NCBI GenBank assembly: GCA_903813345.2
Contig: CAIIXF020000011.1
Location: forward strand, 15,171,754 to 15,235,753
DNA length: 64,000 nucleotides
Direction: 5' to 3'
Source of the DNA: Owenia fusiformis
Lineage: Eukaryota > Annelida > Polychaeta > Sabellida > Oweniidae
Within the stretch, counting starts at the first letter, position 1. Each line of letters starts with the position of its first letter. The translations under genes were made by a program, and so were the position numbers. Shown piece by piece: positions 5,864 to 60,515 of the stretch. The notes under the pieces were generated by a model. That model did not search any database. It saw only the letters and a list, made by a program, of their open reading frames with translations, and was not told the DNA's origin.

Positions 5864-8800
5864 TTAATGTACCATCGCTGAGGGCTGATTTGGATTGTGA
5901 TGGAGAGTATGTGGGAGATGAGGTCTATCTTCAAGTTTATCATATTCCAATAAGAACTCCTTAGCTACTTTACGCCAACTTGGAGCGTCCCAGAAATAAT
6001 ATGTGCCCTTTTCGTAAGAGTTTGTTTTAATGCTTGGGTCCATGCCTGGTGCCCTTGTGATCCATACTCTGTCTTCTTTGTGGTAGCGCCAGTCTCTGTT
6101 ATACCTGAAAGGACAAATTGATATTCCATAACACGTACTTGAGTTTAAAAATGAAGTCAAAATTATGAATTATTTCAATTTTGGATAAACAAGACACTAA
6201 GTGATAAACATTGCAAAATGAAAAATGATTGCCATGACATTAATCAAACATTCCAAAAACCTAATTAGATCTTGGCACTACATAGTCTGCTGTTGCGTCT
6301 GTAAATATGTCAACTTGAATGGATGAGTGATTTCCCTTGAATTTTGATGACAAGATTTATGTGGCATACATTACTGACAAAAAGGAACAATGAAATAAAA
6401 AAGTTCCAATTTTTTGGTCCACTTTGTAAAACGCAGCTAGATAATTCCACTTACAATTCTACAGCAGCTGCCAGCTGTAATACATCACCATTGTTCATAT
6501 AGAACAGGAAGAACAACAGGTCTTCTCCATACCTATTCAACTTTATAGGGGCTAACTGAAACAGAAAATTAAACAAATAGATAACAAGGAATTAACAGGC
6601 AAAATGTCACAACCTTCCATTTGTTACAGACACCAATAGCCAAATCTTAACATCAACTGCAAAACATCAACCACCGAACACAAACAACAGTTGGAGACTA
6701 CGACAAGATGTCACCACTTCTGGTAGTGCCATAAAAATGACAACATTTGGTTGGTTCCAATGGTGGAAAAGAAAAAGGCAATTTCTACAAAACGGGGTAA
6801 AAGTAGGAGATCGAAACAATGTTGTAATTTACCTGAACAGACTCTCAGAGAGCAAGATGAATGGATTATTCCAAAACATTTAAACTACTTAATAAAGTCT
6901 CAAACAGCAATATGTCTATATATGTCATAACTATATAAAAACTGTGACTTTTTGAAAAGTTGAAACAGATCTCTTTAGTATTCTTCACTGCTTCATTTCA
7001 ACTTCATATGTGTAACTCAATATAACTGGACATTCATCAATAAAGCCAACTTCAAATCTATCAACATGAGCGGCTCACCTTTTCTCTGATGAATATATTT
7101 GTGAGATATTCTGAGTGTACGTGGAAGTCAATGTCCTGTGGCCTACATGGGCTGTCTGCCCAGGGAGACTGGAACGTGCTGTACAGATTCCTATTAACAC
7201 AAAGCGTAAACCCAAAGAATGGCTTTGATATAAGCAATGTTAGGGTGGTAAATGTTATATGCAAGTTTAATATATACATAAGAGGCATCAATGTTGTGCC
7301 CATGTGTGAAATGATATGACGTCATACAGATGTCTTCAGTTAAGAAGTGATATAACTAGAAAAACAGCAACTCCACGGAGTAGCAAATCCCACCGAACAA
7401 AACATATTATGCTTATTTTAGCTAAGTGTTAATGTTGAAATGTTTGTGCACTTTGTGATAGAAGCATGAAATTTGCCACAAAGTTAGTTTATACCATTGT
7501 GAACTAAGCATCATCATTATAAAATTTGAACCAAATCCGTTCACTGGTATATGAGTTATCAAAGATTACGTTTTTTACGAATATGGGCCGCCATCTTGAA
7601 ATTCAGCCGCCATCTTGAAAATTATTTCTTGAACAGAGCTACTGTGTCCCTAGGCATAATCATATAAAATTTCAACTAAATCTGTTCACTGGTATTTGGG
7701 TTATCAAAGATTACGTTTTTTACGAAAAATTGCCGCCATTTTGAAATTAAGCGGCCATCTTGAAAATGTTTTGTCGAACATAGCTACTGTGTCCCTAAGC
7801 ATCATCATATAAAATTTGAACCAAATCCGTTCACTAGTATTTGAGTTATCAAAGATTACATATTTTTACGAAAAATGGCCGCCATTTTGAAATTAAGCTG
7901 CCATCTTGAAAATCTCTTTTTGTGCGAAACTCATTTGTCCCTAGGCATAAACCTATAAAATTTGAACCAAATCCATCAACCGGTATTTGAGTTATCGCCC
8001 GGACACAGGGACGAACGAACGGACGGACGGACAGACGGATGGATGGACGGACGGCTTCTCTATATCCCCCTTGAACTTCGTTCGATGGGATAATCAGCCA
8101 TCTTCTTGCTTTTGATTCCGTAGTGATACAGTCCTACGAATCACATGAAAATGAGTCACGTGCCATGTGGTACGGAAAATGCATCATCACAATTGACCAA
8201 TCAAAATACTTCGAAACTTCTAACCATGTGATAAATTTTTGTACATTGGAATTCAGGAGTTTATCACTTACAAAAACAATGGAGTTGTATCTCAATTTGA
8301 ATTATTTCTTGTTAAGTGAACTTGTGGTACATTTTACTTACTCAGGTGAGTTGAGATTTAGCCCTAGAGTAGTAAGGTCAATGCCAGGTGCCAGGGCTAC
8401 AAGATTAGGGTCTGTCTCAGCAGCTCTGATGAATGTTAACAGACCAACCATACCAAACTGGTCATTTACCATCCCCATTGGAATGTTTGACACTGTCCCT
8501 GAAAAACATGAATATTAATGTTTTATGCCGTTTGAATTTATGAACTTCATTTGATTCTGTTTTGAACTGCCAAATTATAACTTGTATTGTATACCAGTAA
8601 GTTATTAGGTTAAATGATGCAGTTTACGTTTCAAGAACGAATAATCGAACTTTTAGGCAAGTGGGCTCCAAGGAAACACCAACTTTCCTGTAGACTGATA
8701 TATTAAGAAATCAACTCAGTAGCTTCCCCCAAAGATCAAATGCTACAGATCAATAGTTGTGAAAGACAAAGTTAATTTTGTTAATTTGACCCCCTCATCT

Positions 8801-21309: not shown

Positions 21310-23640
21310 GTAGGACTACTTTATTGGTCATATGAGGCTTGTAGCCAGAGACGAATATAATCTATGAATGTAGGACTACTAGATTGGTCATATGAGGCTT
21401 GTAGCAAGGGATGAATATAATCTAGGAATGTAGGACTACTATATTGGTCATATGAGGCTTGTAGCCAGGGACGAATATAATCTAGGAATGTAGGACTACT
21501 ATATTGGTCATAAGAGACTTGTAGCCAGGGATGAATATAATCTAGGAATGTAGGACTACTATATTGGTCATAGGAGGCTTGTAGCCTGGGACGAATATAA
21601 TCTATGAATGTAGGACTATTATATTGGTCATATGAGGCTTGTAGCCAGGGACGCATATAATCTAGGAATGTAGGACTACTAGATTGGTCATATGAGGCTT
21701 GTAGCCAGGGACGAATATAATCTAGGAATGTAGGACTACTAGATTGGTCATATGAGGCTTGTAGCCAGAGACGAATATAATCTATGAATGTAGGACTACT
21801 AGATTGGTCATATGAGGCTTGTAGCCAGGGACGCATATAATCTAGGAATGTAGGACTACTAGATTGGTCATATGAGGCTTGTAGCCAGGGACGAATATAA
21901 TCTAGGAATGTAGGACTACTAGATTGGTCATATGAGGCTTGTAGCCAGGAACGCATATAATCTAGGAATGTAGGACTACTAGATTGGTCATATGAGGCTT
22001 GTAGCCAGGGACGAATATAATCTAGGAATGTAGGACTACTATATTGGTCATAAGAGACTTGTAGCCAGGGATGAATATAATCTAGGAATGTAGGACTACT
22101 AGATTGGTCATATGAGGCTTGTAGCCAGGGACGAATATAATCTAGGAATGTATGACTACTATATTGGTCATAGGAGGCTTGTAGCCAGGGACGAATATAA
22201 TCTAGGAATGTAGGACTACTATATTGGTCATAGGAGGCTTGTAGCCAGGGACGCATATAATCTAGGAATGTAGGACTACTAGATTGGTCATATGAGGCTT
22301 GTAGCCAGGGACGAATATAATCTAGGAATGTAGGACTACTATATTGGTCATAGGAGGCTTAGAGCTAGGGACGAATATAATCTATGAATGTAGGACTACT
22401 AGATTGGTCATAAGAGACTTGTAGCCAGAGACGAATATAATCTATGAATGTAGGACTACTATATTGGTCATAAGAGACTTGTAGCCAGAGACGAATATAA
22501 TCTATGAATGTAGGACTACTAGATTGGTCATAAGAGACTTGTAGCCAGGGACGCATATAATCTAGGAATGTAGGACTACTAGATTGGTCATATGAGGCTT
22601 GTAGCCAGGGACGAATATAATCTAGGAATGTAGGACTAATATATTGGTCATAGGAGGCTTGTAGCCTGGGACGAATATAATCTATGAATGTAGGACTACT
22701 ATATTGGTCATATGAGGCTTGTAGCCAGGGACGAATATAATCTAGGAATGTAGGACTACTATATTGGTCAAAGGAGGCTTGTAGCCAGGGACGAATATAA
22801 TCTAGGAATGTAGGACTACTATATTGGTCATAGGAGGCTTGTAGCCAGGGACAAATATAATCTAGGAATGTAGGACTACTATATTGGTCATAGGAGGCTT
22901 GTAGCCAGGGACGAATATAATCTAGGAATGTAGGACTACTATATTGGTCATAGGAGGCTTGTAGCCAGGGACGAATATAATCTATGAATGTAGGACTACT
23001 ATATTGGTCATATGTGGCTTGTACCAAGGGACGAATATAATCTAGAAATGTAGGACTACTATATTGGTCATAGGAGGCTTGTAGCCAGGGACGAATATAA
23101 TCTAGGAATGTAGGACTACTATATTGGTCATATGAGGCTTGTAGCCAGGGACGAATATAATCTAGGAATGTAGGACTACTATATTGGTCATAAGAGACTT
23201 GTAGCCAGAGACGAATATAATCTATGAATGTAGGACTACTATATTGGTCATAAGAGACTTGTAGCCAGGGACGAATATAATCTAGGAATGTAGGACTACT
23301 ATATTGGTCAAAGGAGGCTTGTAGCCAGGGACGAATATAATCTAGAAATGTAGGACTACTATATTGGTCATAAGAGACTTGAAGTCAGGGATGAATATAA
23401 TCTAGGAATGTAGGACTACTATATTGGTCATATGAGGCTTGTAGCCAGGGACGAATATAATCTAGGAATGTAGGACTACTATATTGGTCATAAGAGACTT
23501 GTAGCCAGAGACGAATATAATCTATGAATGTAGGACTACTAGATTGGTCATAAGAGACTTGTAGCCAGGGACGAATATAATCTAGGAATGTAGGACTACT
23601 ATATTGGTCATATGAGGCTTGTAGCCAGGGAGGAATTCAC
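21310..23640. repeat. 60-bp minisatellite, about 39 units
   Basis: The unit reads 'tctaggaatgtaggactact', 'atattggtcataggaggctt', 'gtagccagggacgaatataa'. About 38 consecutive units are in perfect 60-bp register without a single insertion or deletion; differences are substitutions at a few recurring sites. Because 60 is a multiple of three, the minus strand stays open for 311 and 220 codons, a by-product of the period rather than a gene. It lies in the CNOT2 5' region, probably in the first intron. Confidence 0.97.
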
Positions 23641-31220: not shown

Positions 31221-34200
31221 ATGGCTACTAAAATGAATATTGCCACAAAAGTTATCTTGCGAAACCAACTTAAGATGCCCATATTTGGAATAGGTAAGTA
31301 ATATTTCTCTAATTATTACAATATATGTGAGAACTGAGAATAATGTATAAATATTTAAGGTAAATTTGTGTAAAATTATGTATGAATATTTAGATTTATA
31401 CATGCGAGGGCTACATGTATATTATGTGAGGTGTTGGGTATGGGGTATATCTTGAGGGAAATATAGATATCATACTGAGGGCACAGAGGGTCTGAGGTAA
31501 GATATCCCGAGGGATATACCCCATATTCAAAACCAAGCATCACATAACTAATCTATCCTATGACAAGTGAGGTTTCGAAAATGAGGTTTTCATGGCACCC
31601 ATTTACAGGTTTTTTCATTCTCACTATTTTTGAGAAATTGATGAAATTTTGGTCTAGCAAAATTCTACTGTTTGCTGCATCCATCGACAAGTTTGCTCTC
31701 TTGACTGTATCTTTTCCTCGGAATATTTAAGCTGGAGATACACATCGAGAGATATACAGTGGGAGGTATCAATTCTATAATCTGCTGATGTTCCTAAAAC
31801 CTCACTTGTCTTAGGACAAAGTATATCATGCAATATTGCTTTAATATTCAGGTACCTCTCACAATGGAGGTTATAGCAATGAAGCCATTGTTTATGCACT
31901 GAGGGATTGTGGGTACCGTATGATTGACACTGCGGAGCGTTATGGGTCAGAAGGACCCATAAGACTCTCCATAAAGGTACTGATATTGAAAACGGGGCCA
32001 GAGTATCAAACTCTAAAATGTACCATTTTTTTACTTTTTAATGGCATGATATACAGGGTCAGGGTGTTAAAAAAAAACGCAACCCAAAGAAATTGATATA
32101 TCTTGAAAAATACTGGTTCAATTATGTTCATATTTTCAGGAAATAAAGAAGAGACTGTGTATGTATAGCTCTTGTAAATGGTTACTTGGAAAACATGATG
32201 CCTTGGACACCTGCTCAAAAGTCAGTTGTACTAGGAAAATACGAAAAACGCAGTCAAAGGTGACTGCAACTGCAAAAAATTCAATTACTTCCTAACCATA
32301 GTGTTTTGGCTGGCTCTTCAAATTTGGCACAAACCATCTTCATTCACTGTATGGTAAATCTGTAGAGTGAAATCAAAATCACTTCAGGGACTTCACTGTC
32401 ATGGTTGAAATGCTTTCAAATCGCAGTCAAATGCCCTGGTTCAGGGAGACATTTTGACCGTGGCTGTATAGTCCCTGGAGTGATTTTGATGAAACTCCAC
32501 AAATTCACCACACATTGAATGAGGATAATTTGTGCCAAATCTGAAGCGCCAAAACACTATGGTTAGAAAGTTATTTGGTTTTATTGCTGTGGCAGTCACC
32601 TCTGACTGCGCTTTCATATTTTCCTAGTACAACTGTCATTTGAGCAGGTGTCCAAGGCATCATGTTTTACAACTTACTGACAACAGGAGCTATACATACA
32701 CAGTCTCTTCTTTCTTTTCCTGAAAAAATGAGCATAATTGAATTAGTATTTTCCAAGATATAGTGATTTTCCATTCAAGTTTTTCGTATTTTACTAGTAC
32801 AACTGTCTTTTGAGCAAAATTAAAGAAGCACATGGCAGCCATCTTGAAAAATGGTGGCCTTTACTCGTTATTTTACGATTTTTGCTGTAACTCGAAAAGT
32901 ATAGTGGAGCGATTTTGTTCATATTTGGTATGTGAATACTATAAACATTGCACACTGTCTAAAGACACTTTTTGAAGAAGGTGGCCATTTTAAAAAATGG
33001 CCGCCATTTTAAAAAATGGCCGCCATTTTGAAAAATGGCCGCCTTTTTTACCTATTTTACTATAACTCGAAAAGTAGTGAAGCGATTTTGTTCATATTTG
33101 GTATGTGAATACTACAAGGATGGCACACTGTCTAATGACACTTTTGGTAGAAGGCGGCCATTTTGAAAAATGGCCGCCATTTTAACGTGTTTTACTATAA
33201 CTCGAAAAGTAGTGGAGCGATTTTGTTCATATTTGGTATGTGAATGCTAAAAGCATGACACACTATCCTATGACACTTTTAGTAGAAGGTAGCCATTTTG
33301 AAAAAAATTTTAAAAAATGGCCGCCATTTTAATGTATTTTATAATAATTCGAAAAGTAGTGAAGCGATTTTGTTCATATTTGGTATGTGAATACTACAAG
33401 GATGGCACACTGTCTAATGACACTTTTGGTAGAAGGTGGCCATTTTTCAAAATGGCTGCGATTTTAACGTATTTTACTATAACTCGAAAAGTAGTGGAGC
33501 GATTTTGTTCATATTTGGTATGTGAATACTATAAGTATGGCAAATGGTCTAATGACACTTTTGGTAGAAGGTGGCCATTTTGAAAAATGCCTGCCATTTT
33601 TGCTATATACTTTGTTTGTAAAAATGCCATCCATGGCTGTTCGATGGGATTCGCTACGCTTTGGAGTTGCCGTTGTTCTGGTTTTTCTATATTACATATA
33701 TATACTGTAGTATACTACATATACTGTAGTATATTTTGTCCACTGTGACGGAGCAGTTTCATTTCACATTTGCAACTGGCAAAAACTGGCAAAATCTGAA
33801 AATGCTGTGTTGATTAAGAACATTAAATGATGATACAATATGAAAAAAGTTTTCTTCAAATCCATTCAGGAAAGTGGTATCCCTCGGGAGGAAATCTTTA
33901 TCACCACAAAACTGAGATGGGAAAACTATGGTTATGAGCAGGCCTTGGAAGCTTTTGAAGGATCTCTCGATCGCCTTGGTACTGATTATGTAGGTATGTA
34001 TGACTTAATATAAAATTTAAATGATAGGATTTATATGGATGGTTCTACTGTAGCATGCATATTCAATGTTCTAATATTTAAAACTACAGCACTTCATATT
34101 AATTTCTTACAATTAAAATTCATTAACGTGAGTATAATATTTAAAACTACAGTACTTCATATTAATTTCTTACAATTAAAATTCATTAACGAGAGCATAA

Positions 34201-37200
34201 TATTTAAAACTACAGTACTTCATATTAATTTCTTACAATTAAAATTCATTAACGAGAGTATAATATTTAAAACTTCTGTACTTCATATTAATTTCTTACA
34301 ATTAAAATTCATTAACGAGAGTATAATATTTAAAACTACAGTACTTCATATTAATTTCTTACAATTAAAATTCATTAACGAGAGCATAATATTTAAAACT
34401 ACAGTACTTCATATTAATTTCTTACAATTAAAATTCATTAATGTGAGTATAATATTTAAAACTACTGTACTTCATATTAATTTCTTACAATTAAAATTCA
34501 TTAACGAGAGCATAATATTTAAAACTACAGTACTTCATATTAATTTCTTACAATTAAAATTCATTAACGAGAGTATAATATTTAAAACTACTGTACTTCA
34601 TATTAATTTCTTACAATTAAAATTCATTAACGAGAGTATAATATTTAAAACTACAGTACTTCATATTAATTTCTTACAATTAAAATTCATTAACGAGGGT
34701 ATGCACTGGTGGATCTAGAAGTTAACATTTGAAGTCAGGAAAAATGTTTTGAACAAATTTTTGTGCCGCTACCCTAAAACCAAAAATTGGGGCCTTTTGA
34801 AAATTTAAGACTAATGTATTGATAATTTGGCCCTTAAAGGCCAAGTTATGCCCAAAAGGCCCATTGTTTGAGGTCCTACAAAAAAATTTTGCGCCCTAAA
34901 AGTCATGATTCTGTTCAAAACAATCTATTTCATTTATGTAGATCTGTACATGCTGCACTGGCCAGGGAATGGAAGTGATGGTGACCCAAGGACAGTAAGG
35001 GCTGATACATGGAAGGCATTGGAACACCTTTATAAAAAGGGTAAGTTACAAAGACCAAATGTATAATCACACATACATGTAGCTAGGCATGAATTATCAC
35101 CTTTGACCAATCAAAACCCTTTATAAAAAGGGTAAGTTACAGATACCAAATATATAATCACACATACATGTAGCCATAGTGTAGCACCCGGTACGCTGGG
35201 TACGCATGAATTATCACCTTTGACCAATGAAAACCCAGTAAAGTCATGTGTCGCTCATTTTGCTTATGTGCAGATAGATTTTATTAAAGGAACATTCCTG
35301 GCCAAACCATTTCTATCCTGATGTGATAGCTATAATCATATATATACTTTCCATATTTAGCAAAACATGGGGAAATGTTTTAATATAGTCAATATTGATA
35401 ATTTAAAAATGTAGTGCTCATTTCCAGTAAGCTGCCATCTTTTAAGATTTTACTCAGGAAGTGATGTCATCGACTCTCAACTTTCATGACCTTGCATTTG
35501 GAAAATAGCACAATATCACTTCTAGACGAGTGATCCTTACTTTATGCGCAAAAATATGTTCAGAGCTTGTCAGCTTAGAATAAACTTTTAGAAGGATTAA
35601 ATCAAAGACAAAACTGAAAAAGAATATTCATCTGGTTTTGTAATTCTTAATAGCTCCTTATAGTGTTATATGCAAAGTTGAGAGTCGATGACATCACTTC
35701 CTGAGTGAAATATTAAAAGATGGCAGCCTACTGGAATTCGACACTACATTTTCAAGTGATCAATATTGACCATATCAAAACATTTTTCCCTATTTTGCTA
35801 AATATGGAAAGTAAATATTGTTATAGCTACCATATTAGGAGAGAATTGGTCTGGCCAGGAATATTCCTTTAAGATGTCAGAATCAAGGCCAACAATCTGA
35901 CACTTAGTATAAACTGGTGCATCAGTGTTGGTTACTGTTTTGCAGTATTAACTGGTGTAATTTTAGTCATTCTGTCATAGTATAAACTGGTGTGTTGCTT
36001 TTTATCCCAATGAATGAAGTTCAGTAGGGATATAGTGAAACCATCTGTTAAGAAGACATATCATGAACAATATAACTGATACAAGACAACCGAACAACAC
36101 CTGAGTAAGGGGAAGGGGAGAGTTTTCTGGCCGAATCAAAACCTCTAACCCACCTACATGCGGTCTCAAGTCTGTGGTTCCTGAATAGAATTGTTAACAT
36201 CAAAATCAAATGTAAGTCAACCAAGATGAAGAAAGAAGACAACGAATGAAGACATTGTGCAGCAGTAACAAATGACGTCCATCCATTCGTCAGTAAATCT
36301 CCCTGTCTGTCTGTCCATCTGTTTGGAAAATAATTTGAATACCAATGGATGGATTTTCTACATATTTGATGGAAAGATTAATATTGGTAAATGTTTTACT
36401 CAAAAAACACAATATGACACAATTATTATGTACAGCAATTGTAAAGGATCGATTGGGATTATACATTTCTGGACAAAAAACACATAATTTCAAGCTCGAA
36501 ATAAGTTAAGAAATAAGTTAATAAGGTTACAGATTTGAGGAATTTATATTATCTTATTAAACAACATGTACCTAACCAATGAACACATTTGGCAATCTTT
36601 TTGAAAAAGCAAGAATTATAATTTACAGATGATATGCAAATTCAAATTAGTTTAAAAAGTAGATTTTCAAGGGCAAAATAAAAGTTTTATTTATTTTCGG
36701 GTATCTATACAACAGTGTCCATGTACACATTTGGACATATTACAGTATCTCAAAACTCAACTGATTCCCCATAGGAAAATAATTAATTGTCTACAATGAC
36801 TTAAATCATTTGAAAATCTTGAAGCGGTCCCCAAAAGATGTTATCATTTTCCTCGGTGTTGTAAAAATAGTCGAGAACTGCCTCAACAAACTCCTGAGAT
36901 GTTATCTTGCCATCTTTATCCTCATCAATATAGTCAAACTGGCGCTTCATATAATTAAGGTCAAGGTCATAGGCATCCCAGAAAACCTTGTATTCTTTCA
37001 GATCAATGACACCATCCCCATTCAAATCCAGGGCTCTGAACCATGTTGCCATGTATTCATAGACATAGGGTCGGCTGTTCAAGTCCTTGCTATAGTTGTA
37101 GTCCCCAAGAAGCCATTCTGTTATATTGTTCGAGGTGTCGAAGTAATATGGGACTTGGAGATAAAACATACGTACTTCTTCAGCTTTAGCTCCTTTAAGG

Positions 37201-40200
37201 TTTCCTGAAATGCATATTATTATGTTCGTGTAATTGCATGGTGCCATTTTGAAGATCCAGAGGGGTGTGAATGGGAGATGGAACAGCCCATGATAGCAAA
37301 TATGGCAGTTTAAATGTCCAGTTCGAACAAATTTTTTTGTTAAAGCAGTATTGTTAAGTCAGTTAGAAGCTGTTCTGTTACTGTGTAGGTGATTCAATTA
37401 GTATGGATATAATTAATTTCTCTTTAATTTCAAATTGCATTTTGAAAATGTTTAGTTTCTGTTAAAGTAAAGACAACTTCTTTTTGTAATATGCTCATAA
37501 GCGTATCTTAAAGACTTAAAATTTCAGCCAATCAGCATATATATACAAGTAGGTACAAGTGAAGGTGACTTATTCTGACTAGTAAGCAAACTGAACAAAA
37601 AGGAATACAACAGACGATTTATTCCATAAATGCTTTGTTTGCATGAAATCAACAAAATATGACTTACGTAACTTGACAATTTTAAAACTTTGAATTAAAA
37701 AGTGGCTAACGCGACCTCTCAAATGTCAATGATGTATTCACCTGCTTTAATAATCTTCTCAGCTGCAATCTTACTGTCCTCTGTATCCCATACCCCATTT
37801 TTGTTAAAATCAGTCGCCATCACCTTTGTTACTGTCTTCTTCAACCAGAATTTTGGGATATCCTTAAGCTGACTCATATCTACGGTATATACCGACCTTG
37901 ACGACATCTTAGACACTGTTTGATCATTTACTATCTCAACTTTTTTTATTCAAAGTACTCATATCAAAACATATTTATAGTACATGACATATTTCTTTGA
38001 CATTAATGAATTAAAAGTTTAAATAATTTAAAGGCTTTTTTCTCAATTGAGAAGCAGTGCATAACAAGTATTCCATCATGTCTCCGTTTATTCCTTTAAT
38101 GTGTCACATTTTTCAATGCCATCTTGATAAATCATGCCTACTACATGTTTTTTTATAAATTTATATGTATGTATGTTTATTTATTTTTCGCATTCAGCCA
38201 TTGTAAACTGACAGTCTTACTGACTGCTGAGAGGTCACCAAAATGCTTAAATTCTGATATATCTCCAAGGTCTGTCTTTTATTATCTGCAAATTACGGGT
38301 AAATATTACAGTGTGACATACAGATTAATGAATATTTTGTTTATTGGGATTTGCTACTCTGTGGAGTTGCCATTTTCTAGTTGTCATTGTGGCACTGTTT
38401 TGACCGTTGTGTTATTTTTGGTCATTGTATCATTGCATAAACTGGTGTGTTATTATTGGTCATTGTGTCACTGTATTGACTGATGTGTTACTTTAATTCA
38501 TTATGTTGCAATCTAAACTGGTGTGTTTCTTTTGGTCATTGTTTCATTGTATTGACTGTTTTACTATTGGTCATTGTGTTGCAGTGTAAACTGGTGTGTT
38601 ACTTTTGGTTATTGTGTTGCTGTGTTGACTAGTGTGTTACTTTTGATCATTGTGTCGCTGTATTGACTGGTGTGTTACTTTTGGTCATTGTGTAACAGTA
38701 TAAACTGGTGTGTTACTTTTGGTCATTGTGTCACTGTATTGACTGGTGTGTTACATTTGGTCATTGTGTTGCAGTATTAAATGTTTTTTTTACTTTTGGT
38801 TATTGTGTCACTGTATTGACTGGTGTGTTACATTTGGTCATTGTGTTGCAGTATTAATTTTTTTTTACTTTTGGTCATTGTGTCACTGTATTGACTGGTG
38901 TGTTACATTTGATCATTGTGTAACAGTATAAACTGGTATGTTAATTTTGGTCATTGTGTCACTGTATTGACTGTTGTATTACATTTGATCATTGTGTAAC
39001 AGTATAAACTGGTATGTTACTTTTGGTCATTGTGTCACTGTATTGACTGGTGTGTTACATTTGGTCATTGTGTTGCAGTATTAAATGTTTTTTTACTTTT
39101 GGTTATTGTGTCACTGTATTGACTCGAGTGTTACATTTGGTCATTGTGTTGCAGTATTAATTGGTGGTTTTGTGTGTCATTATTTCACTGTTTTTACTGG
39201 TGTGTTACTTTTGATTATTGTGTCATTGTATTTACTGGAGTGTTACATTTGGTCATTGTATTGCAGTATTAACTGGGGATTTTGTGTGTCATTGTTTCAC
39301 TGTATTTACTCATGTATTACTTTTGGTTATTGTGTCATTGATTTGACTCATGTGTTACATTGGATCATTGTATTGCAGTATTAAATGGTGGTTTTGTGTG
39401 CCATTGTTTCACTGTATTTACTAGACTGTGTTACTTTTGGTTATTGTGTCATTGATTTGACTCATGTGTTACATTGGATCATTGTATTGCAGTATTAAAT
39501 GGTGGTTTTGTGTGTCATTGTATTTACCGGTGTATTACTTTTGGTTATTGTGTTGTAGATCATGTGTAAGTTTTGGTCACAATGTCATAATATCACAGTG
39601 TAAACAAGTGTGCTATTGGTCACTGTGTTAGTCTTGACTCAATGAAAAACATATGAAACAAATGAAAAGTCATAAAAATATCTGATATGTTGCAGGAAAA
39701 TGTAAAGCTATTGGTGTGAGCAATTTCCTAGAGCGCCATCTATCTCAACTTATGGAGGATTGTGAGATTGTGCCACATGTTAACCAGATTGAATATAATC
39801 CATGTCAGAATCAAACTGAGCTTCTGGCCTTTTGCAGAAGGAATGGTATATATATAGAGGTAAGAAATTTTAGAGTAACTTTTTCAAATTTGGTGAAAAC
39901 ATTTTATTGAAATTTTATTTTAATGCATAAACCACGCCTTACCATCGACAAGGTACAGTCACGTGACAGTGACAAAATATACCGTAGTACACTTTTGATG
40001 TACGACTATGATGTAGGTTTGATGCAGGTTTTCAAAAATTTTGAGGAATACATAAAGGATTTCATGTTTGATTTCGCGTGTATTCGATTTCAAAGACATT
40101 TATTTTTCTAATTACTTTAAAAGTGCTTGATTTTTTTCGCTGTAAGTCTACCCATACAATTGTTCGGTTGGAAAAATGTTGTTTTTTACACATTTTCTTT

Positions 40201-49615: not shown

Positions 49616-50540
49616 TTATCCCATCGAACGAAGTTCGGAGGGATATAGGGAACGCCTCCGTCCGTCCGTCCGTCTGTACGTACGTCTGTACCGTCCGTCC
49701 GTCCGTCTGTCCGTCCGTCCGGGCAATAACTCAAATACCGTTAGCCCGATTTTGTTCATATTTTGTACACATATACCCTATGGGGGTAGAAGTTATGCTC
49801 GACAGCCGATTTTCAAAATGGCCGCTCATTCAAAAATGGCGGCCATTTTAGTGCCGATTTTACTGTAATTTAGGTGCAATATGTAAAACTGTAATAGCAA
49901 TATGTTTTAAATGTAAAAAAATTATATAGGACATTGATAAAGCTAGAAATGTAGATATTAAAGAAGCACATGGCAGCCATCTTGAAAAATGGCGGCCTTT
50001 ACTCGTTATTTTACGATTTTTGCTGTAACGCAAGAAGTAGTGGACCGATTTTGTTCATATTTGGTGTGTGAATACTATAAGCATGGCTCACTGTCTAATG
50101 AAACTTTTGGTAGGAGGCGGCCATTTTGAAAAATGGCCACCATTTTAAAAAATGGCCGCCATTTTAACATATTTTACTATAACTCAAAAAGTAGTGGAGC
50201 GATTTTGTTCATATTTGGTTTGTGAATACTATAAGCATGGCACACTGTCTAATAACACTTTTGGTAGAAGGCGGCCATTTTGAAAAATGGCTGCCATTTT
50301 AAAGTATTTTACTATAACTCGAAAAGTAGTGGAGCGATTTTGTTCATATTTGGTATGTGAATGCTAGAAAAAAAGCATATTACTTCTGATGACAACTTGG
50401 CTAGTGAGCAACCATTTTGAAAATGGTGGCCTTTCTTATGTGTGCTATTTTATGATATTTGCTATATATTTCGTTTGTAAAAATGCCAGCCATTTCTGTT
50501 CGATGGGATTCGCTACGCTTTGGCGTTGCCGTTGTTCTGG
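49616..50540 (+). mobile_element. Helitron-like element, family 1, copy d, with empty site preserved
   Basis: Starts TTATCCCATCGAACGAAG (hairpin CGAAC-GAA-GTTCG), then (CCGT)n, then about 130-bp core units. It ends GTTCGATGGGATTCGC, hairpin ACGC-TTTG-GCGT and CTGG. The right palindrome arm at 51128-51142 reads straight through the target (ccctataa|tttgatg), so the insertion added no target duplication. The exact breakpoint is ambiguous by two Ts. Confidence 0.82.
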
Positions 50541-53076: not shown

Positions 53077-54214
53077 TTATCCCATTGAACGAAGTTCAGA
53101 GGGATATAGGGAACGCCTCCGTCCGTCCGTACGTACGTCCGTACATACGTCTGTCCGTCCGTCCGTCCGTCCGTCGAGGCAATAACTCAAATACTGTTGG
53201 CCCGATTTTATTCATATTTTGTACACATATACCCTATGAGGGTAGAAGTTCTGCTCGAAAACCGATTTTCAAAATGGCCGCTCATTTAAAAATGGCGGCC
53301 ATTTTAGTGCCGATTTTACAGTAATTTAGGTGCAATATGTAAAACTGTAATAGCAATATGTTTTAAATGTAAAAAAAATTATATAGGACATTAATAAAGC
53401 TAGAAATGTAGATATTAAAAAAGCACATGGCAGCCATCTTAAAAAATGGCGGCCTTTACTCGTTATTTTACGATTTTTGCTGTAACTCGAAAAGTGGTGG
53501 AGCGATTTTGTTCATATTTGGTATGTGAATACTATAAGCATGGCACACTGTCTAATGACACTTTTGGTAGAAGGCGGCCATTTTGAAAAATGGCGGACAT
53601 TTTGAAAAATGGCCGCCATTTTAACTTATTTTACTAAAACTCGAAAAGTAGTGTAGCGATTTTGTTTATATTTGGTATGTGAATACGTATAAGCATGGCA
53701 CACTGTCTAATGACACTTTTGGTAGAGGGCAGTCATTTTTCAAAATGTCCGCCATTTTAACGTATTTTACTAAAACTCGAAAAGTAGTGGAGCGATTTTG
53801 TTCATATTTGGTATGTGAATACGTATAAGCATGGCACACTGTCTAATGACACTTTTGGTAGAGGGCAGTCATTTTTCAAAATGGCCGCCATTTTAACGTA
53901 TTTTACTATAACTCGAAAAGTAGTGGAGCGATTTTGTTCATATTCGGTATGTGAATACTGTAAGCATGGCACACTGTCTAATGACACTTTTGGTAGAAGG
54001 CGGCCATTTTTCAAAATAGTGGACATTTTGAAAAATGGCGGACATTTTAACTTATTTTACTATAATTCGAAAAGCAGTGGAGCGATTTTGTTCATATTTG
54101 GTACGTGAATACGTATAAGCATGGCACACTGTCTAATGACACTTTTGGTAGAAGGTGCCCGTTTTGAGATATGTTCGATGGGATTCACTACGCTTTGGCG
54201 TTGCCGTTGTTCTG
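53077..54214 (+). mobile_element. Helitron-like element, family 1, copy e
   Basis: 5' end TTATCCCATTGAACGAAG after an A, (CCGT)n, then about five 130-bp core units. 3' end GTTCGATGGGATTCAC with hairpin ACGC-TTTG-GCGT and a slightly damaged terminus (TTCTG). Closest to copy d. Confidence 0.8.
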
Positions 54215-54475
54215 TTTTTACAGGCCATGATAATTTGGCTCGAATTTTGTTCTGTCTAAATCAAGTAACTAGTCATTTTAACAAGAGGGTATTACTGGAC
54301 ATTTTTCCAGATTTGGGCCCTTATTTTCTTCTGTGCAAGCGCGGAAATGTTTGGGTCCCCTCCCTTGTTTTTGTGGCCACCCCTGGTGTCTTGTTAATAA
54401 CACCCTTGTGGTCACAATGCGAAATTGGTTCGAGCCCCCCCCCCCCCTAACCAAAACCTGGCTACGGGCATGACA

Positions 54476-57249: not shown

Positions 57250-58687
57250 AGAATTTTGTAATGTTGAATACTGGGTATAGATTAGCTGTACTGTATACTA
57301 CAACATTGACGTCTAAGTAGCTGATTATTAGGTATAATATGTTATCATGTTTTGTCATCATAATTCCAGTAAAACTGCTCCTTGGGTTCAATGCAGCTTT
57401 CAACTACTGTTAGGCTGGTAATGTTCTGAAGATCTTGTGCAACACCTTTGAATTATTAGCCCATTGAACGAAGTTTGGAGGGATGTAGGGAACGCCTCCG
57501 TCCGTACGAACGCCTGTCCATCCGAGCAATAACTCCAGTTGGCCAGATTTTGTTCATATTTTGTACACATATTGTCAATGAGAAGTTCTGTTCGAAAGTC
57601 GATTTCCAAAATGGCCGGTCATTTAAAAATTGTGGCCATTTTAGTGCCAATTTCACAGTAATTGAGGTACCGCATATAAAACTGTAATAACACTATGTTT
57701 TAAGGTACCATGGAAGTTAAGGTGCCATAATACTTTACGGGAAATGACGAAACAGAAAGTGACAAAAAAGTATGCATTTTTAGCATCTCTGTTATCTTTG
57801 TTCAAAAATGTTAATTTTTGGTCACTTCCTGATTTTTCATTTCCTGTTAAGTATCATGGCACCTTAACAGGAAATGACAAACAAAAGTGCCAAATTTAAT
57901 GGTTTAAACGACAGGTGGCGGTAAACCCCTCTTTTAGCCCCCCTACAAAACAATATTGATATGGAATTGAAGAGGAAGTATGACTCATTACTTAAAATGT
58001 GATTTCTGAGAATTTTGACATTTGACCTTGACATTAGGGTGGTTTAAAGGTCAACGTTGAACACTTTGGGTTTACACTTTGGGTAGTAGGCGGCCATTTT
58101 GAAAAATGGCCACCATTCTTTACGTTTTTTACTATAACTTGAAAAGTAGTTGAGTGATTTTGTTCATATTTGATATGTGAATACTTATGAGCCTTGCTGA
58201 CTGTCTCATGACACTTCGCCTAGTAGGTGGCCATTTTTAGAAATGGCTGTCATTTTTGGCTCACACAGTGAGCCTATGGGATCGACCAGGCGTCCGTTGG
58301 TCCGTCCGTCCGTTGGTCCGTCCGTCCTTCCGTCCGTTGGTCCGTCCGTCAACATTGGCCGCACAAATTAAAACTGCTATTCGGATTGAGTCATATCCAC
58401 ATTCATTTTATACATATCCATAATGCCTATTTGACCTATCATCGCCATTTCCCAAGTTCGCCCGGTTTCCGAGAAATTGCGGATTTTGACGTCAAAAAGT
58501 ACAATTTTCTGTAAATACTAGACACTTTGTTGAAGTAGAACTTTCAAATAACTTTTAGTAGTTGCTGTATATGCAACTTATGTCCTCTGAAGATTTCAAA
58601 GCTCTGAGAATTACAGTTTTTGGTGTTTACTCTATAAAATTTGACAAAAAGTAGGACTTAGTCATTTTCAGGAAACTTTCTCATGTA

Positions 58688-59599
58688 CAGGGTGACCCAA
58701 AAAAATGCAACCCTCCATTTCTCGAATATTTTTCTTAAATGGAGGTTAATTGCTCTGAAATTTGGCACACAAGGACTTCATTCAATGTGGGATCATCTGG
58801 CAAAGTTTCAATAATCATAGTCTTATATTGATAGAGTTATGGTCGTTCCAAAATATGCTCCAAATGTCATCCATTTCCAATGTTAGATTTCGGATGAATC
58901 ACATTCCCTTCTTTCTGAACATGTAAACTCAAGAAATAATGTGTTCTGGGATCACAAATTCCAGATAAAGTGCTTCACAGGCCCCTACATTCTGTTAAAT
59001 GCACAGCTTGGGCTGCCAATTTCCAAACATGAAATCAACAGCCCCTTTTGGTTTGAGGTTGATAATGGTAACACTGTTACTGTTAACACACAGCGCAATA
59101 TTGGCGTTCCCAGAAAATTCTAGGCAGTTCTCACTTCTAATGATGGCATAGCCTGGCTCACAAGTCATTTCTATGAGAAGATTATCTCTCCTAGGACAGA
59201 TAACCCATGGTCATCCCATTGTCTTGATGTCAATGCCCCTGACTTCTATATATGGGGTTATTTAAAGGATAATGTGTATGAAAATAACCCTACCGCAATT
59301 GCAGAACTCCAATAAGCAATGGCTGCAAAAATTTGAGCCATACCCATGGGGAAGAATGCATCCGTGTTATGAACAGTTTTTTTTGAACATTGCAAGTTTG
59401 TTTTCAGTGAAATCAACGGCATCTGGAGCATATTTTGAAACAACCATAACTCTATCAATATAAGACTGTGATTATTAAAACTTTGCCAAAGGATCCCACA
59501 TTGAATGAAGTCCTTGTATGCCAAATCTCAGAGCAATTAACCTCCATTTAAGAAAAATATTGAAGAAATGGAGGGTTGCATTTTTTTTGGGTCACCCTG
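58688..59599 (+). mobile_element. Mariner-superfamily element with 174-bp inverted repeats, defective
   Basis: Ends CAGGGTGACCC and GGGTCACCCTG, TA on both sides (58686-58687, 59600-59601). Arms 58688-58861 and 59425-59599 are near-perfect inverted repeats. The interior (about 560 bp) is a broken transposase remnant. Confidence 0.9.
58941..59320 (+). pseudogene. Mariner/IS630-type (DDE_3) transposase remnant
   Basis: FEVDNGNTVTVNTQR matches the region before the first catalytic block in related transposases. After a stop at about 59120, PDFYIWGYLKDNVYENNP matches the conserved segment near the third catalytic residue. The central block with the second aspartate is missing and stops interrupt the frame, so it is inactive. 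Confidence 0.7.
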
Positions 59600-60515
59600 T
59601 ATAAAGTCAATGGCAGGTTTTGTGATTGACAAGTTTCTCAAAGTTTGCCTTATACTTGATCATTTCTTGCAATGAATTACATCATTCATTACTAGATTTA
59701 AGCATTCCCTACATATTGCTCAATATATGTCAGCATCACATTTTTACCGTTTTTGTATTTGACGTAAAAAAACAGTAAAAATAAGTTATTTTTCAACTTG
59801 CTTCAATTTGACCACATTATTTTTTGAAAATAATCTACAAGTTGCCAGGAGTTCAAATCTGACATTTCTTTTGGGATTTGACCTTTAGTGACCTTTGAAA
59901 GGTCAAAAAAGTTCGAGACTACAAATCCAAATCAATATTTTTGTTTTAAAGTCAGGATATATGTTCCTCTGAAGGTTCCAAACTGTGTGAGCACAGGACC
60001 GTGGGTCCTTCATTACATTTTTTACGATAACTCCAAAAGAATTGGAGCGATTTTGTTCATATTTGATATGTGAATCCTTTAAGCATGGCACATTGTCTAA
60101 TAAAACTTTGGGGAGTAATCTGCCATTTTGAAAAATGGCCACCATTTTAATGTGTGTTATTTTACATTTTTTATTATGATTCAAAAAGTAATAGAGCGAT
60201 TTTGTTCATATTTGATATGTGAATACTCGTAAGGATTGCTTACTGTCTTATGACATTTTGGGTAGTAGGCGGCCATTTTAAAAAATGGCCAGCATTCACA
60301 TGTATGTGTGTGCCATTTTTAAAATTTTTTATATGTGGCCGCTTAAAAGCATATTACTTCTTCTGATGACAACTTGGCTAGTGAGCAACCAAATGGTGGC
60401 CTTTCTTATGGGTGTTATTTTATGATATTTGCTATATATTTTGTTTGTAAAAATGCCAGCCATTTCTGTTCGATGGGATTTGCTACTCTTTGGCGTTGCC
60501 ATTGCCGTTGTTCTG

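Follow-up and report, generated by a model that had tools for sequence, protein, structure and literature searches.

Can a non-autonomous rolling-circle element take up a complete, intron-containing gene and carry it to a new place in the genome? This question is raised by a locus of the annelid Owenia fusiformis, in a 64-kb stretch of contig CAIIXF020000011.1 (positions 15,171,754 to 15,235,753; hereafter the window, with positions counted from its first base), where a complete gene for a sarcoplasmic calcium-binding protein (SCP) lies between the two ends of a HINE-like element (36002–38380) and within an intron of an AKR gene. Transport by rolling-circle elements has mostly been described for fragments of genes, and the case in the window concerns a whole gene with its intron. 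A preliminary description of this DNA had proposed that a Helitron-like element had captured a whole gene here. The analysis presented below indicates, with a probability of about 0.72, that 36002–38380 inserted as a single HINE in which a genomic copy of a complete SCP gene had taken the place of the interior. Published work is cited by PMC number.

Termini and Internal Organization of the Element

The segment 36002–38380 (2,379 bp) opens with TTATCCCAATGAATGAAG and closes with GGGATTTGCTACTCTGTGGAGTTGCCATTTTCTAG. Its two ends are those of a non-autonomous rolling-circle element that is present in high copy number, and they come from a single dispersed family. The 5′ terminus (36002–36048, + strand) opens TTATCCCAA, contains a TATCCC/GGGATA inverted repeat and scores 51.0 bits against a 5′ end profile to which this same copy contributes. 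The end profiles were built from 21 (5′) and 24 (3′) copies, most window ends included; the ends in the window had first been located by pattern and were then used in profile building, with the sole exception of the one at 54170. A pattern for the 5′ subfamily, allowing at most two mismatches, has 1,440 matches genome-wide and 0 with the reversed control. In an alignment of the 3′ terminus from 12 fetched genome copies and the window, likeness reaches CTAG and then ends; CTAG is present in 10 of the 13 rows and absent from L012, L013, and L019. Both termini were located in nine of the 12 fetched copies picked by their 5′ module, the copies measuring roughly 0.7–1.9 kb, and were not found together within the fetched stretch in the other three (L022, L027, and L032). 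One copy, L033, joins the same kind of 5′ end to the same kind of 3′ end as the element in the window. These alignments and profiles bear out the earlier proposal that the ends at 36002 and 38341 are homologous to a family consensus. L033 was itself considered as a second gene capture, which is not supported: about 780 of its 1,261 searched interior bases are a nested high-copy repeat, and the first ~400 have no other match.

Within the segment, element-derived sequence makes up 36002–36407 and about 38223–38380, and the part between them, about 36408–38222, is foreign. Other copies of the family align over 36002–36048 and pick up again near 36276, which leaves a nested, unrelated dispersed repeat of ~227 bp (36049–36275) in the 5′ end of the element; its core at 36074–36185 has 40 further matches listed, the best 40 of 539 candidates having been scored. 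The copy alignments then follow a GTCC/GTCT-type microsatellite and the left module of the element (36276–36407, + strand), and the left-hand limit of likeness to other copies lies at 36405–36408. On the right, likeness to the element starts near 38223–38233 with the 3′ module (38223–38380, + strand), which was defined by alignments, profile and folding and holds a subterminal TTGGGAT, a palindrome and the terminal CTAG. The foreign segment (36408–38222, − strand) was delimited by comparison with element copies and with SCP paralogues; 36640–38159 encloses the stretches alignable to the chromosome-5 paralogue, and 36408–36639 and 38160–38222 belong to the foreign segment outside that bracket. 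The middle part of longer relatives (about 400 bp in L024) is missing around the gene in the window copy, as replacement of the element interior would give.

The Element Is HINE-Like

Canonical Helitrons begin with 5′ TC, end with 3′ CTRR and insert between A and T. The terminal CTAG of the window element fits this scheme, but its 5′ end is TTATCCC and its flanks are T and T, so that a canonical Helitron is rejected; the A/T target and CTAG of canonical Helitrons are given in PMC1657028 and PMC4067079. The rolling-circle termini of the preliminary description stand, with the correction that their structure is HINE-like (Helentron/DINE-1 type). A 5′ hairpin, TATCCC...GGGATA, is found at 36003–36032 (z-score −2.37; 7 of 200 shuffles fold equally well) and a 3′ stem-loop at 38353–38370 (−3.8 kcal/mol; z-score −2.69; 4 of 200), and a GTCC/GTCT tract, longer in several relatives, lies near 36276–36332. 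The 5′ hairpin, microsatellite, 3′ palindrome, T flanks and lack of target duplication agree with what has been published on HINEs, which are the non-autonomous partners of Helentrons and insert at T-rich targets without target duplication (PMC4067079, PMC7492417). The element shares with HINE, DINE-1, and Cg_HINE a 5′ end with an adjacent inverted repeat, a GTCC-type microsatellite after the left module, and a 3′ subterminal repeat followed by a palindrome (PMC4067079, PMC7492417); as in these systems, some relatives in the window have tandem repeats between their ends. It differs from them in carrying a complete gene and in its terminal inverted repeat, ATCCCAA in the 5′ end and TTGGGAT before the 3′ end, which is perfect over only 7 bp, compared with 11–13 bp in the literature (PMC4067079, PMC7492417).

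The Helitron_like_N (Helitron Rep) domain has 58 matches in the genome among the matches listed. At one of the three Rep-bearing places examined, Rep, PIF1, endonuclease, and OTU domains stand in one frame of 3,026 amino acids, a predicted Helentron-type gene; the other two have Rep, PIF1, and endonuclease in two frames, and Rep with PIF1. Ends of the family near these three places belong to separate short elements (contigs C2 and C6) or consist of a lone 5′ end on the opposite strand (C5). Many of the listed Rep matches lie in open frames of ~3,000 amino acids, and several share a high-numbered contig (six on C13, four on C515), a pattern that resembles recent activity or a local concentration.

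The Empty Site

The segment splits a 38-bp minisatellite, of which a left remnant (35907–36001) was recognized by alignment to the repeat unit and the right part (38381–39485) by repeat finding and alignment to the unit. Aligned as minisatellite, the left flank has 73 of 95 bases identical and a score of 65 (the best of 100 shuffles reaches 25). When 36002–38380 is removed, the flanks join in phase, ungapped at the junction and with a score of 281; the joined sequence is identical to the repeat unit at 223 of 273 positions, and its three gaps all lie away from the junction. All shifts tried of either cut score below 281. A one-base shift costs only 2 to 5 points, because the cut sits in a T run, and the empty-site test therefore fixes the ends to within about one base. 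There is no target duplication; T flanks the segment on both sides, and the rejoined site reads TTT/TTG. The clean split without duplication noticed in the preliminary description is thus confirmed, and the in-phase, ungapped rejoining implies arrival in one step, either of the entire segment or, at a minimum, of an element bounded by these termini.

The Carried Gene and Its Host Intron

The foreign segment holds an intact SCP gene model of two exons and 189 amino acids on the − strand: exon 1 with the start codon at 37742–37907, a GT-AG intron of 537 bp at 37205–37741, with repeat-like stretches inside, and exon 2 at 36801–37204, with 36801 the last base of the stop codon. At 36686–36695 (− strand) the sequence has two AATAAA poly(A) signals that overlap, one of which is retained at the corresponding position of the chromosome-5 paralogue. 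Upstream of the start codon, 37926–38159 (− strand; best block 38041–38070) is common to the chromosome-2 and chromosome-5 paralogues and is a candidate promoter. A TATA-like box at 37972–37979 is found in the window copy only, the aligned stretches of the two paralogues lacking it, and was not used as evidence. Five EF-hand families score above cut-off for the product, residues 20–183 of which align with Nereis SCP structures (PDB 1q80/2scp; E 1.6e-14 for 1q80); from this EF-hand architecture and near full-length likeness it is predicted to be an SCP. Both proteins end FWGPL in the alignment; the window SCP differs from that of Nereis in being, by sequence, one of a duplicate family with a single coding-region intron. 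An intact EF-hand gene of 189 amino acids with an intron and a poly(A) signal between the termini, as first described, is therefore supported by the gene model and the family matches.

AKR exons occur on the + strand at about 31.9, 33.9, 34.9, and 39.7 kb, on both sides of the segment. Two were identified by Pfam, at 39.8 bits and at 18.9 bits (the latter under the cut-off of 24), and the other two we take to be AKR exons from familiar motifs. The host intron extends over about 35043–39687, its edges set by eye. Since + strand AKR exons lie left and right of the insertion, it sits in an AKR intron with the SCP gene antisense to its host, as had been claimed.

Paralogues and Origin of the Cargo

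Eight close SCP paralogue loci are present in the genome, on five other chromosome-size contigs, and all eight have the intron at the same position. None of the eight is bracketed by element ends, as judged by the end profiles, within fetched flanks of about 2.8–3.8 kb. SCP loci elsewhere with the same intron and without bracketing ends, which the preliminary description had suggested looking for, are thus found, and spread of the whole dispersed SCP family by HINEs is not supported. In the DNA tree the window gene groups with L001 (chromosome 2) and L002 (chromosome 5), which are sisters with 97% support.

Homology extends beyond the exons. The downstream stretch 36640–36780 and the upstream stretch 37948–38159 align with L002, and 37926–38210, also upstream, aligns with L001. 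All three alignments score above the best of 100 shuffles, and against L001 the downstream stretch scores no better than background. The DNA at the edges of the intron is likewise homologous between the window gene and the paralogues. The kept intron and the homology of intron edges and flanks imply that the gene was copied as DNA, which rules out a retrocopy of mRNA, and the flank alignments imply that the transferred piece held the 3′ flank with the poly(A) signals and the common upstream region. The cargo is not repeat-like: its upstream part matches only the chromosome-5 relative (2 of 2 candidates scored).

The paralogue loci show several further features. L002 (3533–4327, on C5) is an SCP pseudogene: exon 1 has an in-frame gap of 18 bp, a 7-bp deletion shifts the reading frame, and the gene also contains an in-frame stop and an insertion of 18 bp. 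In L003 (3436–4240, on C6), which lies ~18 kb from the intact paralogue L004, some 40 codons are absent from the central part of exon 2. An element 5′ end is found 3.2 kb from the gene at L001, and a HINE of 385 bp lies upstream of the L002 pseudogene in the same orientation, ~117 bp beyond the shared upstream block; homology of this HINE with the 3′ end in the window was considered and rejected, as it belongs to a different subfamily. At L005 a weak 3′-end-like stretch (7005–7035; E 0.004) stands ~350 bp upstream of the start codon with the relative orientation seen in the window; it was not recovered by blastn, and no matching 5′ end was found. L006 has a weak partial 5′ match (E 0.15), and in L007 a HINE 5′ end (3870–3826) lies inside the intron of the SCP paralogue. 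Similar tandem arrays occur upstream of the gene at L001 (996–2578) and in the intron at L005 (3776–5167), the best piece being 89.9% identical over 989 bp.

Age and Selection

The pairwise ratio of nonsynonymous to synonymous divergence (dN/dS) between the window gene and L001 is 0.26. On the window branch, estimated from distances, dN is 0.040 and dS 0.123, a ratio of 0.32, part of which may predate capture; L001 has a branch ratio of 0.17, and the pseudogene L002 one of 0.71. Values of dN were below dS in 93.5% of 200 bootstraps for the window gene, 70% for L002 and 100% for L001. These counts leave out L003 and the two L009 genes. Compared with the majority of its relatives, the 3′ piece of the element shows a divergence of K = 0.10 (13/140), near the dS of 0.12 on the window-gene branch, which is counted in favor of the capture reading. 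The insertion looks old, apparently of the same order of age as the gene's own branch, and an unselected passenger of such age would be expected to resemble L002 more.

How the Gene Came to Lie in the Element

Gene capture is recognized by host sequence with a genomic paralogue sitting between the two termini of one element, and that is the arrangement observed; the termini, the empty site and the gene model together uphold the original view that a rolling-circle element here contains an entire gene with its intron. The further step, from a gene inside an element to a gene captured and moved by it, is one that we infer. In the reading preferred here, the interior of a HINE would have been replaced by a copy of the SCP gene that comprised the intron, ~250 bp of upstream sequence, and the 3′ flank including the poly(A) signals. 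The element and the gene would then have inserted as one into a T-rich spot of the 38-bp minisatellite in the AKR intron, without target duplication, and movement would have been mediated by the RepHel/endonuclease of a Helentron acting in trans, a Helentron-type gene being present in the genome. Capture would thus have preceded insertion, and the copied gene may still be working. A stronger form, in which the HINE duplicated the complete gene with its promoter region in one DNA-level step and selection kept the copy working, is put forward tentatively, with the balance leaning somewhat away from it.

Several observations weigh against the capture of the gene by the HINE before insertion. The tree points to no exact donor: it places the window gene outside the pair formed by the chromosome-2 and chromosome-5 paralogues (97%). 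No second copy of the composite, which the preliminary description had suggested looking for, was found in three genome searches in which 40 of 1,350, 40 of 64, and 2 of 2 candidates were scored, so that mobility of the gene-bearing form is putative. An autonomous element with these termini was not found at the 3 of 58 Rep-bearing places examined. The missing middle is not specific, as short copies such as L012 (~290 bp) lack it too, and copies of the family take nested inserts, as does L033. The 5′ piece of the element is more diverged (K = 0.21; 29/161) than the 3′ piece. Finally, purifying selection on the window copy is likely but not secure, to judge from the dN/dS estimates.

Among the alternatives, the one that survives best is end bypass, in which transposition would have started at one HINE 5′ end, continued through an adjoining SCP gene and terminated only where another HINE, close to that gene, supplied a 3′ end. 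This route has been described (PMC5148889, PMC4067079), HINE ends are dense in the window, and both the HINE upstream of L002 and the 3′-end-like stretch at L005 are counted in its favor; however, the L002 element comes from a different subfamily and has a 5′ end of its own, no trace of which remains in the window copy, blastn did not recover the L005 stretch, and copies of the L033 type already join both ends seen in the window. End bypass is accordingly regarded as rather unlikely, although, as a special form of capture, its probability overlaps with that of the preferred reading.

Somewhat less probable still is a scenario in which a short HINE inserted first and an SCP segment was later duplicated into the resident element by DNA repair or ectopic recombination. 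Such a history would satisfy the empty-site result equally; internally short copies exist (L012), and nested inserts are seen both in L033 and in the 5′ end of the window element itself. It requires, however, that another event, independent of the first, struck the central part of a target only a few hundred bases long, and the cargo is not repeat-like. Coincidental bracketing of an old resident gene by two truncated elements, to which the eleven ends found in 64 kb by the end profiles might lend itself, is highly improbable, as two separate insertions are not expected to leave an in-phase minisatellite at both termini, and two truncated flanking elements are ruled out by the empty site.

Other Features of the Window

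According to the end profiles, the window has five 5′ ends, at 36002, 49616, 53077, and 57456 on the + strand and at 8093 on the − strand, and six 3′ ends, five on the + strand (33620–33678, 38320–38381, 50479–50537, 54170–54215, and 60449–60506) and one on the − strand (7416–7357). At 57456–60510 a 5′ and a 3′ end are separated by 3 kb, and a further CGTC tract is found at 58291; this is probably an element with a nested insertion. A tandem array with a 60-bp unit (38.8 copies, 94% matches) occupies 21310–23636.

Comparison with Known Systems and Significance

The arrangement was called unusual in the preliminary description, and this is right insofar as it does not mean without precedent: in 2006 the maize Helitron Hel-BSSS53-z1C1 was reported to hold an intact intron-containing cytidine deaminase gene, ZmCDA3 (PMC1657028). 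Both elements are non-autonomous rolling-circle elements with an intron-containing gene in an intact frame and a source on another chromosome; the maize element differs in being a canonical plant Helitron (5′-TCT, A/T target) with two genes (PMC1657028). ZmCDA3 had lost part of its first exon and intron, and no transcript of it was found (PMC1657028), whereas the SCP gene in the window keeps both exons and its flanks on either side. Whole-gene copies have also been attributed to Helitrons in the KCS arrays of Populus, a plant case that differs in consisting of tandem arrays and in that the Helitron linkage is stated rather than read from an empty site (PMC13253262). Gene models between Helitron ends are known from fungi as well (PMC4289320, PMC5148889): non-canonical Helitrons of Fusarium hold 27 putative genes, captured wholly or partly (PMC5148889), and the predicted captured genes of Pleurotus Helitrons are of unknown origin (PMC4289320), unlike the cargo in the window, which has paralogues in the same genome. 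For Helentrons, gene fragments have been described in two genomes, along with gene duplicates associated with DINE-1-like elements (Thomas et al., 2014; PMC4067079). No HINE with a complete gene was found in those parts of the literature that were surveyed.

The suspected connection of DINE-1-like elements with gene duplicates can be tested directly at this locus. As a well-delimited case, with flanks and a readable empty site, it is clean ground for asking whether HINEs make new functional genes, and it suggests an ability of such elements to duplicate and relocate entire genes, not fragments only.

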